Source: Microcaldota archaeon (lineage in GTDB: Archaea; Micrarchaeota; Micrarchaeia; Micrarchaeales; CABMGC01). From it: 64,000 bases of DNA. The DNA is taken from contig JAGWGW010000004.1 of the NCBI GenBank assembly GCA_028867135.1, positions 1-64,000 on the forward strand. The letters run 5' to 3'. Positions 30,851-36,446 of this stretch are shown in pieces; positions within the stretch are counted from its first letter, which is position 1, and each line of letters opens with the position of its first letter. The position numbers and the translations under genes are program-made. The notes under the pieces are model-generated. The model was not told the DNA's origin. It ran no database searches and was given only the letters and a program-made list of their open reading frames with translations.

Positions 30851-31402
30851 TCAAATTCCGCGGTGCTTCCTTCCGGAGCTTGTCAGTCCCCTAAAGCTCC
30901 TTCCCCTCCTGCTTGCAACCTGCCTATGTAGGTCTCCGGACATCGCCGCAGGATTGCTCCTGTCGACGAGTATGGCCTCGAAGAACTTGAACTTTCCGTC
31001 CTCCCCTGCATAATAAGAATTGACAACTTCGCAGTTCAGGAACTTCCTTGCTGCTCTCTCCTCCGCAATGGACTGCATCGACTTGTCGTATGCGAAGAAC
31101 CTTCCGGCCTTTGACGGCTTCCTCCCTCCCCTTGCCTTCTCCCTTTTTCTAAGTCCCTTCTTTATCCTTACCCTTGCGACCACGATGCCCTGCTTTGCCT
31201 TGTATCCCAGCTCCCTCGCCCTTGCGAGGTTGGTCGGTCTCTCAATCCTGAATACCGAGGGCTGGTCCCTCCACACAGCCGCGCGGCTCTTGAAAACCTG
31301 GTCTCTCTCCTTGTACCTGTTCTGAATGCTCTCTCTTATGTATTTGTAAGCTCCCATCGGGACCACAGAAAACTGTGCACTTATCGAATGAATAAGCAGC
31401 AA
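30851..31402 (-). CDS. rpl15e: Ribosomal protein eL15
   Basis: MGAYKYIRESIQNRYKERDQVFKSRAAVWRDQPSVFRIERPTNLARARELGYKAKQGIVVARVRI; true start probably MGAYKYI. Confidence 0.93.
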   Translation of the reverse strand: MLLIHSISAQFSVVPMGAYKYIRESIQNRYKERDQVFKSRAAVWRDQPSVFRIERPTNLARARELGYKAKQGIVVARVRIKKGLRKREKARGGRKPSKAGRFFAYDKSMQSIAEERAARKFLNCEVVNSYYAGEDGKFKFFEAILVDRSNPAAMSGDLHRQVASRRGRSFRGLTSSGRKHRGI

Positions 31403-31445
31403 GAAACATTCTGCTGTAAATTATATATACCTTTTTATTAAGGCT

Positions 31446-32351
31446 GTGAAAATAACAATCATGAAAGCCGAACCTAGAAAACCAACTAGTGTAAAGCTGC
31501 AGTCCGCAATGGAGTATCTCATGACATACGGCTGGGCAATCATCGCAATTGCAATCGTGATGGTCTCGCTCTACAGCCTCGGCATATTCAACCTCCAGAG
31601 CCTTGCGCCAACTGCGACACCCGGCTCATGCCAAGTCATAAGGACAGCGGCTCAGACCAGCCTTGCTGGGCAGTGCGGAAATCTAATACCCAGATACGTT
31701 TCGCAAGATATCGGACTGTCATCTACATCTGTGGCTGATAGCCCAGCCCTTCAGTTTTCTGGCACGTCACCGTTTACAATCATATTCTGGATAGACATAA
31801 AATCGTACAATTCTGCGTATATTAGGCAACTGGATCACGATCCAACCGATGGGAACGGAAGGGAGGGCTGGCTTGTATATACAGAAAAAAATGCGCATAC
31901 TGAATGCCTGCAACGTTTCTTATCAGGTTCCGCAGACACGATATGCACGTCTGCACCCTCTCTTAACAAATGGTATTTTGTTGCATTTACGTATGATGGA
32001 TCCACGATGAAATCATACCTAAACAATACTTTGTCGCAATCGGTTTCATCGACAAAAAGCCTTACTACAACGACGCAGAACCTTTACATAGGTGGATATG
32101 GTGGCAACAATGACGGCCAATATCTTCACAGTAATATCCAGCTCTACAACACGTCACTCGATAATACGACCTTAAAGATGTTATACCAAGAGGGCATCGG
32201 AGGAGCGCCGATAGACCTGCAACATCTGATTGGTTGGTGGCCGCTGAACGGGAACACAAACGACTACTCTGGAAATTTTAGGAATGGCGCATCGTCAACC
32301 TTGAAATGGAGCGCAAACTGGCAGGGCGATTACAGCCAGCCTGCAACATGA
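31446..32351 (+). CDS. Type-IV-pilin/class III signal peptide N-terminus fused to LamG/concanavalin-like domain
   Basis: LQSAMEYLMTYGWAIIAIAIVMVSLYSLGIFN; GSCQVIRT; PFTIIFWIDIKSY...DNTTLKMLYQEGIGGAPIDLQHLIGWWPLNGNTNDYSGN. Confidence 0.8.
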   Translation: MKITIMKAEPRKPTSVKLQSAMEYLMTYGWAIIAIAIVMVSLYSLGIFNLQSLAPTATPGSCQVIRTAAQTSLAGQCGNLIPRYVSQDIGLSSTSVADSPALQFSGTSPFTIIFWIDIKSYNSAYIRQLDHDPTDGNGREGWLVYTEKNAHTECLQRFLSGSADTICTSAPSLNKWYFVAFTYDGSTMKSYLNNTLSQSVSSTKSLTTTTQNLYIGGYGGNNDGQYLHSNIQLYNTSLDNTTLKMLYQEGIGGAPIDLQHLIGWWPLNGNTNDYSGNFRNGASSTLKWSANWQGDYSQPAT

Positions 32352-32428
32352 CGATAATTTTAAGACCCATAGGTTCCTGGATGTGGATATGTTTGCGGAT
32401 CCAACACGTTTCTTTTCTGCACAAAAGT

Positions 32429-32436
32429 TTTATATA
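32429..32436 (+). promoter_or_regulatory. Archaeal TATA box for peptide/ATP-grasp operon
   Basis: agttttatatagct, about 40 nt upstream of ATG 32470. Confidence 0.55.
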
Positions 32437-32469
32437 GCTAAAGAGCGGGAGATTCTGCAAAGTGCTAAT

Positions 32470-32562
32470 ATGCAAAAGCCTCTAATCAGGATTCTCCAGA
32501 CCGATTCCGTATGCACGGTTAGCACCGCTCTTCCTACAACGGTCGGAACATCAGCTGCATAA
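32470..32562 (+). CDS. Putative 30-aa Ser/Thr/Cys-rich peptide (RiPP-precursor-like or attenuator leader peptide)
   Basis: MQKPLIRILQTDSVCTVSTALPTTVGTSAA; first ORF after TATA; stop abuts hairpin. Confidence 0.4.
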   Translation: MQKPLIRILQTDSVCTVSTALPTTVGTSAA

Positions 32563-32588
32563 GATCCATCTCTCCTTCGGATCTTTTT
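32561..32588 (+). terminator. Hairpin + T-tract between peptide ORF and downstream genes (attenuator-like)
   Basis: AAGATCC-atctctccttc-GGATCTT followed by TTT. Confidence 0.55.
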
Positions 32589-32604
32589 GCAAAATGTGAT
32601 AATA

Positions 32605-32742
32605 ATGAGGCTAAAATATAAAAAAATACGATTTATCGGTCTGCGGCTAGCCCCAGAGACGGAACTTGAATCGATTACCGGATCAGCTGCAGCTCTGGCC
32701 GCGCAGATGGAGGGATCTGCTATCATGTTGGTGAAAATATGA
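32605..32742 (+). CDS. Putative 45-aa peptide overlapping start of ATP-grasp gene
   Basis: MRLKYKKIRFIGLRLAPETELESITGSAAALAAQMEGSAIMLVKI; ATGA overlap with next gene. Confidence 0.45.
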   Translation: MRLKYKKIRFIGLRLAPETELESITGSAAALAAQMEGSAIMLVKI

Positions 32743-34049
32743 ACGCAATATCTGAATCTTCGTATGATGTGCCGCGCAATGTCCTGCTTCAGGCAAGTAC
32801 CGACGTTGTCGTATCGGAAAGGGGAGGGATACACTTCGTGGACTTCAACAGGTTCCAGGAGGGCTACTCCCTGCAGCTGCTCAACAGCGGACCTGCTGTC
32901 GAGGCTGCATTTGCGAGGGAAACGGAAGGAATCATGAAAGGGAAGAAGGTGCATCTTGTAGGGAGCACATCCTGGCCAGAGCTGAACTACGGTGAGATAT
33001 ACGGCCTCACCATAAAGTACCTGCTCAAGGATGTCGCGGGGGCCTCTGACGTCTCAATAACATACGGCCTTGGCGGCCTTGACGTAAGGAAGGGCAGGTT
33101 TACAGTGACCGGCGAGGAGAGGGCGATATTCTACTACAGGGATTTCGAGGCCAAGAGCAACAGGCAGAAGCTCGACTCAGACCTCAAGAAGCTCTTCAGC
33201 CTTATCAGGAGAGCGCCTGATTTCGAGGCTTCGCTTGAGCAGGGCTGGGTGAACTGGCCTACCGCATGCTGGTGCCCCGCCAACATGTCCATAGACGCGC
33301 TGATGACAAAATCCGAGATATACAGGAATGCGGGCAGCGCAGGGTTCGACGTCCCGACGTACGTACTCATAAATGACAGGCAACACGACGCTGAGCTCAG
33401 GGAGGTGCTGCACTCCATGCTCAAGGAGCACGGCATAGTGATAGTGAAGCCGGACAAGGTCGGCGGAAGAGCGGTCGGCGTCAGCGTGATACACGACAGC
33501 AAGGACATAGAAGGCTTCATCGGCAGCTTCAGGCAGCTGAAACTCGAGAACTGGCTTGTCGAAGGCCATATCCCTAGGGAGGTGCTGGTCATAGACGGAA
33601 AGAGGATAATCTACGACCTCATACCTCTGGTTGTCGGCGCAGAGGCTGTTGGCACCTACGCGAAGTACTCGATAGTCGAGAACGGCGTTGCGAAGAAGAT
33701 GCCCGGCCAGAATCCTGCGGTCTTCATGTTCCCCGGATTGGAGAACCAGGAGCATCTAACAGACAGGGCCATGTCTTTGATGGACAAGGTCGGGTTCAAG
33801 GGCGGCGGAAGCGCAGCGCACGACAGGAACGAAAGGATGAGGCAGTTCGGCGCTGTCGAAGGACCCGAGGCCGAAGGCCTGCGGGACTACTTCAGGAACG
33901 GAAAGGGAAAGGATACCATAAGGAAGGCCGAGGCTGCAGCTGTGCATGTCAAGAGGATGCTGATGGAGATGGCAAGGGACAAGGCGCCCGCGCTCAAGGA
34001 TTCCTTGGGAAGCCATATAGCCGCGCAGAAGCTCAGGCAGAAGGCCTGA
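32739..34049 (+). CDS. ATP-grasp-like ligase
   Basis: HGIVIVKPDKVGGRAVGVSVI; NWLVEGHIPREVLVIDGKRIIYDLIP; downstream metal-binding region divergent. Confidence 0.6.
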   Translation: MNAISESSYDVPRNVLLQASTDVVVSERGGIHFVDFNRFQEGYSLQLLNSGPAVEAAFARETEGIMKGKKVHLVGSTSWPELNYGEIYGLTIKYLLKDVAGASDVSITYGLGGLDVRKGRFTVTGEERAIFYYRDFEAKSNRQKLDSDLKKLFSLIRRAPDFEASLEQGWVNWPTACWCPANMSIDALMTKSEIYRNAGSAGFDVPTYVLINDRQHDAELREVLHSMLKEHGIVIVKPDKVGGRAVGVSVIHDSKDIEGFIGSFRQLKLENWLVEGHIPREVLVIDGKRIIYDLIPLVVGAEAVGTYAKYSIVENGVAKKMPGQNPAVFMFPGLENQEHLTDRAMSLMDKVGFKGGGSAAHDRNERMRQFGAVEGPEAEGLRDYFRNGKGKDTIRKAEAAAVHVKRMLMEMARDKAPALKDSLGSHIAAQKLRQKA

Positions 34050-34072
34050 ACGCAAGCGAGGAGTCGCGGCGC

Positions 34073-35251
34073 TTATCCGATAGCGAAGCGCATGAGCGTT
34101 TCCTTCGCCTTTTTCATGTCTTCTATTACAACGTATTCGTTGGCTGCATGGTCCGTGCTGTTGCCTAATGGAATTCCGTACGCCATTGTCGGCACACCGT
34201 ATTCCGCGAAGAACCTCCCATCGAGGCCGCCCCATGTTCCGTATACCTTGCCCGTACCATCGGCCTTGATGAAATCCTTCACAAGCTTGTTGCCAAGGTC
34301 GGTTATGTACCCATCCCATTCTGCAGTTATCTCAAGTTCGGCGTCTATCCTTGCTTTATCCACAACCCTTCTCATAAAGCTCTTGAGCTCTGCTACTGCA
34401 GTTCCTGGCTTCTCCTCAGGTATGAGCCTCATGTCGAAGCTTGCCTCGAACTCTCCAGGAAGGACGTTCAGAACATGTCCGCTCCTTATCATCGTGATGT
34501 TGAACCTTCCGAAGATGCTCTTGCATGGCGCGTCGGTCTCCGAAAGCCTGAGCCTCGAAATGTGCTTCGCCCTGACCTTCTTGAATTCCTGCATCGCTTC
34601 CACGAATCTCATGCCATCAAGTATCGCGTTCTTCCCTTTCCAGTCCTCCCCAGCGTGCCATTGCATGCCCCTTATCCTGAACTTTCCCTGCACCACGCCG
34701 CTGCATCCTGCGATCGGCACCCTGTGCGCATCCATCACAAGGGCAAGGTCTATGCCTTTTACCCCTTTTTTCTTCAGAAGGTACTTGAGCCCCATCTCGC
34801 TGCCAATCTCCTCGTCGCACGTAAGAACCAGCTTTATGTTGTACTTCCTATTCTTTGCGCTGTTCAATTCCCTGACAAGTCCCATGGACAGTGCAAGCGG
34901 TCCTTTATCATCGCATGTCCCCCTTCCGTAAAGCTTCCCGTTCTTCGCCAGCATGCTGAAAGGCTTGCTTTTCCATCCGTCTCCTGAAGGCACGACATCA
35001 TAATGGCAGTTTATCGCCACGGTCTTTTCCATTCCGTAGTCGAAGTCTGCAACTATGTTCGGCTTCGGCTTGTCCGAATCCCCGTTCTTGTACGGGTCAA
35101 CGACCGACACGTTCCCGCCAAGCTTCTTTGCCGTTGATACCAGGAATGATTCCATATCCCTGTACGCCTTGCCGTCCCCAGATACTGTGGGGATAGACAC
35201 AAGCTTTCCAAGGAACTTCAGCTCCCAGTCAAGGTCCATAAAATGCACCAT
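34073..35251 (-). CDS. M20 family metallopeptidase (ArgE/DapE-like)
   Basis: VAINCHYDVVPSGDGWKS; LYGRGTCDDKGPLALSM; LVLTCDEEIGSEMG. Confidence 0.88.
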   Translation of the reverse strand: MVHFMDLDWELKFLGKLVSIPTVSGDGKAYRDMESFLVSTAKKLGGNVSVVDPYKNGDSDKPKPNIVADFDYGMEKTVAINCHYDVVPSGDGWKSKPFSMLAKNGKLYGRGTCDDKGPLALSMGLVRELNSAKNRKYNIKLVLTCDEEIGSEMGLKYLLKKKGVKGIDLALVMDAHRVPIAGCSGVVQGKFRIRGMQWHAGEDWKGKNAILDGMRFVEAMQEFKKVRAKHISRLRLSETDAPCKSIFGRFNITMIRSGHVLNVLPGEFEASFDMRLIPEEKPGTAVAELKSFMRRVVDKARIDAELEITAEWDGYITDLGNKLVKDFIKADGTGKVYGTWGGLDGRFFAEYGVPTMAYGIPLGNSTDHAANEYVVIEDMKKAKETLMRFAIG

Positions 35252-35285
35252 TACATTGTGCCAGCAATTTTAATAAAAGATATCT

Positions 35286-36446
35286 TCAGAAAACGAACCT
35301 GGCAAGGCCCTTGAGATACAGATACAGCGCAACGTATATCGGTACAGTCACCTCTGCGCTCTTGTAAGGCCCGTAGTGCTGCCCGTTCATTATCACCCCG
35401 TACCTTGAATCTGCGAATATTGTCATCTGTCTCTTCCTGAACGCTACCGCATCCTTCATCGGGTCGAATTTGCCGAGTTCTGCAACGCTCTTAACCTTCT
35501 TCGCAATCAGGCCCGTTTCCCCGTGTATGGAATTAGGGAGGCGTATCAGGTGGCTGGGATCCTTCGTGACGTTCCTGTCTATCCTGTCGCTCTGCATGAT
35601 CGCCTGCACGTTGCTTATCCTGTTCCAGAACTCCACCTTGTTCTTTATGTATACCATGTCCCAGTTGCCCCTGTTTATGCCCAGCTCTATCAGGGCGCGC
35701 TTGCCGTAAAGCCTTGTCGCCATCTGCCTGTCTATCCCCAGTTCAGCAAGCGCATCCGTGGAGTCGTTGAGCCTCTTGAGGAAGTTCCTCGCTATCTTGC
35801 CTCCCCATCCGCTGTCAGTAGGCCTGGGCCCTATCAGGGCCGTGCCCTTCCTCCCCGATGTTGGGAAGAAGTCCGATACCTCTATGCCTGTCCCTGAAAT
35901 GTACTCGCTTATCTGGTTCCTTGCATGGGAATCCAGCCTTAGGATGTCATCCCTGTCGACATGGACGTGGTATCCCCTGTTGCCGCTGAAGTTGACCTCG
36001 AGGTCCTTCTCAGAGAACCCAAAATCCGGGATGAGAAAATCCTCTATAAGCTTTATGGTCTCCTGCTTCACGCTTTCCAGGCAGTTGTCGCACACCCAGG
36101 ACTTCTCATGGACAAGGTGGCAGCTGAGGTTCATGTCCGTGACGTCGAGGTCGAAGACCAGCTCCGAGCCCAGCCAACCTTTCGTTTCCATGGGTCTCGA
36201 AGCGGGCTCCTTGTAGTAAGCAGCAGAGTATGAGACATACGGCGGAGGGTTCGCGACAAGATAGTTCTTCAGCGCCTCCTTCCCAGAGAAGCTGAAGTGC
36301 CTGTAAGCGATCTTGACATCCCAGTTTCCGAATCCGAATTCCCTACTCTCTGTCTTCCTAGGCGCTATGTCCTCTGCGCTCTTGTAGTACTCCTTGATCA
36401 GGTTCAGGACCAACGGCAGTCCTTCCCTGTCCATGAATTCTGGCAT
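35286..36446 (-). CDS. priS: DNA primase small subunit
   Basis: REFGFGNWDVKIAYRHFSF; SELVFDLDVTDMN; FSGNRGYHVHV; RLPNSIHGETGLIAKKV. Confidence 0.9.
   Translation of the reverse strand: MPEFMDREGLPLVLNLIKEYYKSAEDIAPRKTESREFGFGNWDVKIAYRHFSFSGKEALKNYLVANPPPYVSYSAAYYKEPASRPMETKGWLGSELVFDLDVTDMNLSCHLVHEKSWVCDNCLESVKQETIKLIEDFLIPDFGFSEKDLEVNFSGNRGYHVHVDRDDILRLDSHARNQISEYISGTGIEVSDFFPTSGRKGTALIGPRPTDSGWGGKIARNFLKRLNDSTDALAELGIDRQMATRLYGKRALIELGINRGNWDMVYIKNKVEFWNRISNVQAIMQSDRIDRNVTKDPSHLIRLPNSIHGETGLIAKKVKSVAELGKFDPMKDAVAFRKRQMTIFADSRYGVIMNGQHYGPYKSAEVTVPIYVALYLYLKGLARFVF

Follow-up and report, generated by a model that had tools for sequence, protein, structure and literature searches.

A putative translation-dependent leader ahead of a divergent ATP-grasp-like gene resembles a leader module recurring across one Micrarchaeota family

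Control by leader peptides is well known in bacteria, and amide ligases with a paired hydrolase include NAGGN synthetase with an M42 hydrolase, LysX-LysK, and carnosine synthase-carnosinase. Attenuation leaders and translational coupling through RNA unfolding have been reviewed (PMC12548453), and coupling of overlapping gene pairs by termination-reinitiation at ATGA has been shown in Haloferax volcanii (PMC6728339). Graspetide precursors are marked by a conserved leader motif and a core of Thr/Ser plus Asp/Glu (PMC8939145). A limited literature search returned no described leader-peptide control in Micrarchaeota. Here we analyze a 64,000-nt stretch ("the window") on contig C17 of G000, a 961-kb Micrarchaeota MAG, and propose that an ATP-grasp gene there probably has a translation-dependent leader at positions 32429 to 32742, one that diverges from the other copies of a leader module of its Micrarchaeota family.

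An earlier note on this DNA had listed a TATA box, a 30-aa ORF with a hairpin and T-tract at its stop, a 45-aa ORF, and a 436-aa gene overlapping it by ATGA, and we found every one of these where it had placed them. The TATA box lies at 32429 to 32436 on the forward strand, within a 14-nt matrix site scoring 12.9 bits against a promoter matrix trained on genomes of the Micrarchaeota set itself, and the predicted transcription start falls at about 32457 to 32462. The first small ORF (uORF1, 32470 to 32562, forward strand, 30 aa, MQKPLIRILQTDSVCTVSTALPTTVGTSAA) begins 41 nt after the TATA box, the spacing seen in the leader module elsewhere, and its terminal GCA-TAA lies 128 nt downstream of the box. 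Its C terminus reads SAA, with the stop of TGCATAAG inside a stem; in position, length, and Ala-stop within a hairpin arm it matches leader ORFs elsewhere. The hairpin (32556 to 32591, forward strand), whose 5' arm contains the uORF1 stop, has an outer stem, TGCA/TGCA (32556-32559/32588-32591), and a perfect 7-bp inner stem, AAGATCC/GGATCTT (32561-32567/32579-32585), which runs into a T-run on the 3' side (32584-32588). A second small ORF (uORF2, 32587 to 32742, forward strand, 51 aa, beginning MQNVIIMRLKYKK) starts with TTG at 32587 in the 3' arm, or alternatively with ATG at 32605 to give 45 aa, and its TGA overlaps the ATG of the enzyme gene (32739 to 34049, forward strand, 436 aa). An M20-family peptidase/deacylase gene (ArgE/DapE-like; 34073 to 35251, reverse strand; Pfam E 8e-29, with NCBIfam support) is convergent with the ligase gene.

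This layout resembles that of attenuation and RNA-unfolding leaders in having a short leader ORF, a hairpin at its stop, and, in the opposite arm, the region of the downstream start, so that a ribosome reading the first ORF would make the second accessible (PMC12548453). It differs from the known attenuation leaders that we found in that the sequences of the window-family leaders, their hairpin family, and the genes that they would control match none of them; Rfam gave no match for the window leader, the ATP-grasp loci, or the regulator loci described below. The ATGA overlap of uORF2 and the enzyme gene is likewise shared with the Haloferax volcanii pairs; those have an ordinary gene as their upstream partner, whereas in the window this partner is a short ORF starting in a hairpin arm (PMC6728339). 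A stop codon in one arm and the next start in the other suggest translation-dependent opening. Transcription would start about 10 nt ahead of uORF1, and a ribosome completing uORF1, whose stop lies in the 5' arm, would hold the hairpin open and expose the next start in the 3' arm (uORF2 in the window, the gene itself at regulator loci), so that translation could go on at uORF2 and then, via the ATGA overlap, at the enzyme. The T-tract suggests an added terminator role in the window, where the hairpin may double as a partial terminator if uORF1 is untranslated. The switch mechanism, the signal to which it would respond, and the working of the window copy in the manner of the other copies are inferred.

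The enzyme is present in 7 of 303 genomes of the phylum, the window's included, and the viral contigs searched held no homolog. DNA upstream of the ATP-grasp homologs is unconserved, and a DNA-level search of 99 relatives with the window leader gave short chance matches only. Four of the six homologs besides the window's (G051, G025, G106, and G263) are preceded by a distant TATA box, a short ORF that begins some 40 nt further on, and a hairpin at the ORF stop; counts from the ATP-grasp loci alone are post hoc, because the pattern was first spotted in these same loci. The G106 homolog is also preceded by a 36-aa ORF starting MQK, with an ATGA overlap as in the window, and G025 has an additional strong TATA box 40 nt upstream of the ligase gene. 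We rejected an alternative ORF from GTG in G106, which does not end within the hairpin. The uORF1 peptides of these loci are unalignable, with no detectable shared sequence, and their codon usage is noncoding-like; whole-leader folding is significant among ATP-grasp loci in G051 and G263 only, the overall structure of the window leader being not unusual. The closest homolog, in G001 of the same genus as the window (55% identity), lacks a leader, its 151-nt gap holding its own near TATA box and neither small peptide ORF. An unrelated ATP-grasp gene next to an M20 gene in G117 stands behind the same layout, its hairpin, TGCATAAAG..CTTTATGCA, likewise carrying an Ala-stop on the 5' side.

A pattern derived from this G117 locus (GCATAARR-N8-38-YYTTATGC, with no ORF criterion) provided a route independent of the window's ATP-grasp homologs, and in 79 genomes of the Micrarchaeota family this hairpin-only search gave many more matches than a reversed control. 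All data are MAGs, and a simple ORF caller was used for the controls. A TATA box lies 110 to 185 nt upstream of 35 hairpins (both strands of the retrieved loci counted), and 29 of these 35 have an ORF of 31 to 46 codons that starts 28 to 52 nt after the TATA box, typically about 40 nt downstream, and runs to precisely the Ala-stop carried by the 5' arm. The gene downstream usually starts within the 3' arm. Most commonly it encodes a winged-helix-like regulator of 108 to 120 aa, found in 68 of the 79 family genomes, for which Pfam and NCBIfam matches are subthreshold only and the best PDB match is AF_1382 (E 0.01), followed by ArsR-type repressors (E 0.11). The leader was recovered at most regulator loci examined, including that of the window genome (L153), whose regulator gene lies at G000:C16:15779-16126. 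In genus g25 the module precedes large unannotated proteins (L135, L138, L140, L141, and L146) and the G117 ATP-grasp gene, and several g25 leader peptides share a pattern like N..L.FSV..V..LQ...L...SA. Of the 303 phylum genomes, 49 contain matches to R1, a covariance model of the element, and every one of the 49 belongs to this one Micrarchaeota family; in the window genome R1 scores 57.8 bits at the regulator and 30 bits at serA. A further R1 match there, on contig C24, was discarded, as it lies inside a coding region and has no TATA box.

Substitution patterns at the regulator loci bear on whether the leader ORFs are coding. Across nine pairs, dN/dS ranges from 0.21 to 0.67, the pairing of the window genome with G001 giving 0.27 (pS 0.42, pN 0.15); pooled over six pairs sharing no genome and summed by hand (G000/G001, G045/G002, G043/G035, G114/G044, G107/G042, and G116/G117), pS is 38.4/141.3 and pN is 60.6/509.7. 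Ratios below one indicate that leader peptides are made, at least there, and on this evidence we take the leader ORFs at regulator loci to be translated. The purifying selection on small ORFs that the earlier note had named as a check could be shown for leader ORFs at regulator loci only, the search having turned up no close homolog of the window copy for such a comparison. Whether such peptides act in trans, as a signal or small functional protein, with the hairpin only shaping the transcript, is a question raised by the peptide center MPISLIVIAMKTTN, which is conserved in G000/G001 at the regulator loci, by dN/dS below one, and by a partner gene that is a regulator. Yet peptides ahead of different genes within one genome differ greatly, and the selection equally fits a nascent chain acting in cis; we therefore consider a trans-acting role improbable.

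Covariation was assessed on 32 hairpins, a set that left out the window and the ATP-grasp loci. Their 10-bp helix is 95.9% paired, and the covariation score exceeds those of all 500 shuffles and of all slid versions. Invariant pairs prove nothing here, because the arms were picked by pattern; the signal is carried by variable pairs (columns 13 to 16), at two of which the pattern demanded purine/pyrimidine. A serious rival, though on balance an unlikely one, is that the element is a DNA operator, a conserved palindrome bound by the winged-helix-like regulator for autoregulation and control of a small regulon, with the leader ORF incidental or separate. It would account for the element's place at the start of the regulator gene itself, seen in most of the genomes examined, and at serA-like genes (L108, at G000:C6:19553-19602; L149; L085), where the hairpin covers the start codon and no leader ORF ends in it, and the resemblance of the regulator to winged-helix repressors fits it as well. 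On the other hand, the arm spacing varies widely, which is odd for a dimer site, some helix pairs switch to G-U, which suits RNA, and in 29 of 35 cases the frame of the leader ORF stays open right up to the stop in the hairpin, the ORF being under purifying selection. More broadly, we tentatively suggest, as something that may hold but on which we would not insist, a family-wide form of archaeal control in which a rapidly evolving leader peptide is translated and read out via a hairpin containing its stop and the next start codon, setting the expression of the winged-helix regulator and several peptide-ligase-type metabolic genes, possibly via nascent-peptide ribosome arrest. With its recurrence across this DPANN-type family and leader peptides whose translation selection supports, the module brings such control within reach of experiment in archaea, and it offers a way into small-molecule ligase genes that otherwise lack annotation.

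The window leader shows the module's TATA distance, a leader ORF start at +41, and an Ala-stop inside the 5' arm, and on these sequence features it is likely a member. A generic scan (TATA, ORF at +28 to +52, 25 to 50 codons, GCN-stop, and a stop codon within a stem of 7 or more pairs), whose limits were fixed after these loci had been seen, gave 8 matches in 418 kb of real sequence and 0 in 12 shuffled copies; the matches comprise four ATP-grasp leaders (G000, G025, G106, and G263), one regulator leader, and three others. The layout thus fits 4 of 6 ATP-grasp homolog leaders, the window's counted. The window copy escaped a stricter module scan that demanded 8 or more Watson-Crick pairs. Under R1 it scores 8.2 bits (E 0.52), part of its outer stem being broken, and this is the best match within 31000 to 36000 (5 kb) and in the expected place; an R1 search of the whole window genome did not report the window copy, and R1 does not recover the leaders of G106, G263, and G051. 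The weak R1 score is one reason to ask whether the window layout is a coincidence or a decayed remnant, with the gene served by a weaker TATA-like site 122 nt upstream and the ORFs untranslated, and the absence of the leader in G001 is another. Codon usage gives no coding support for uORF1, a test that is not decisive because a real pilin/LamG gene upstream scores low too, and ORFs of this size often arise randomly: 52% of gap shuffles contain an ATG ORF of 30 or more codons, and 5.8% contain one placed about 41 nt past the TATA box, so the small ORFs are singly within chance expectation. The hairpin is rare, however, a perfect 7-bp hairpin arising in 0.25% of gap shuffles and twice in the 64-kb window on both strands, once in the leader. 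None of the 12 shuffled copies of the 418 kb contains the full combination, which is present at three further, distant homologs, and we regard coincidence or decay as unlikely. The upstream gene used in the codon comparison (31446 to 32351, forward strand) encodes a type IV pilin-like N terminus and, after it, a LamG/ConA-like domain (Pfam E 7e-15); its codon usage differs from that of the remaining contig, and it was possibly acquired.

The 436-aa enzyme has no Pfam match, and the earlier description of it as ATP-grasp-like holds weakly, through subthreshold matches to Ddl (D-Ala ligases), NAGGN synthetase, and RimK, those to Ddl and NAGGN synthetase falling in the same region. With hhalign, RimK (E 0.0007 over 143 columns) and DdlB (E 0.0013) stand out against decoys outside the ATP-grasp superfamily (E 0.1 to 0.6), and the search did not detect GshB (E 0.14) or the G117 ATP-grasp protein (E 0.57), both of which are ATP-grasp. 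K191, K237, and E275 are invariant in the enzyme family. An AlphaFold model was too poor to use (pLDDT 41), and Foldseek was uninformative. From the profile comparisons, the enzyme is likely a divergent ATP-grasp protein of the RimK/Ddl kind.

Small ORFs beside an ATP-grasp gene had led the earlier note to propose a RiPP-like locus. On that reading, uORF1 or uORF2 would be the precursor modified by the ATP-grasp enzyme and the M20 protein the processing peptidase; some graspetide loci likewise have a peptidase gene nearby (PMC8939145). Small ORFs do stand upstream in four to five of six homologs, so that homologous ligases cannot be said never to have them, G001 having none. The M20 gene adjoins the ligase in most homologs, ABC transporter genes lie upstream in G263, and PLIRI in uORF1, judged by eye, agrees with Phhx(1,2)h, a loose motif of graspetide leaders (PMC8939145). 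Against this, the module is mostly found without any ATP-grasp gene and precedes the regulator and several other enzyme genes, the uORF1 peptides show no similarity to one another, and both peptides are absent at the nearest homolog, in G001. A single residue of the window peptide is acidic, by eye against the published motifs the peptide has no Thr/Ser..Asp/Glu core (PMC8939145), and window-type loci have no conserved leader or core motif. Pfam and NCBIfam profiles gave no match of the enzyme to graspetide ligases (MdnB/C type), and PADLOC found nothing. A precursor role is therefore very improbable, and where a small ORF stands beside an ATP-grasp gene it is advisable to check for that small ORF elsewhere before calling a RiPP locus. 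The other half of the earlier proposal, an attenuated enzyme gene, survives in a broad sense: across the family, a uORF with a stop-codon hairpin is found before the regulator and before several enzyme genes, consistent with a leader that acts in cis.

Gene neighborhoods suggest what the enzyme behind this putative leader may do. An M20 peptidase gene adjoins the ligase in 6 of 7 homologs (window genome counted), convergently in G000, G001, G051, and G025 and directly downstream of it in G100 and G263. The arrangement is like that of known ligase/hydrolase pairs in setting an ATP-grasp ligase with a weak NAGGN synthetase match beside a metallo-peptidase, and unlike them in that the enzyme is divergent, the hydrolase is M20 rather than M42, and no carrier protein was found. 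Related M20 genes in 19 other genomes do not have the window's ATP-grasp family adjacent. Some are convergent to other carboxylate-amine ligases, namely, an unrelated ATP-grasp (G117, L086) and a GCS2-like protein (G038, L091), and the place beside related M20 genes looks as if it were a slot for ligases. Together with the M20 adjacency, these other ligases fit an enzyme that forms small-molecule amides or dipeptides and is matched by a hydrolase. The enzyme is thus probably a small-molecule or dipeptide-type amide ligase partnered with the neighboring M20 hydrolase, the kind of substrate being suggested by sequence likeness and gene order. In G106 (L027:5862-7532), an asparagine synthase B gene is convergent with the ATP-grasp homolog in place of M20, and in G263 (L030:1413-4099), genes for an ABC transporter ATPase and for two permease-like proteins are found immediately upstream of the leader and the ATP-grasp/M20 pair.
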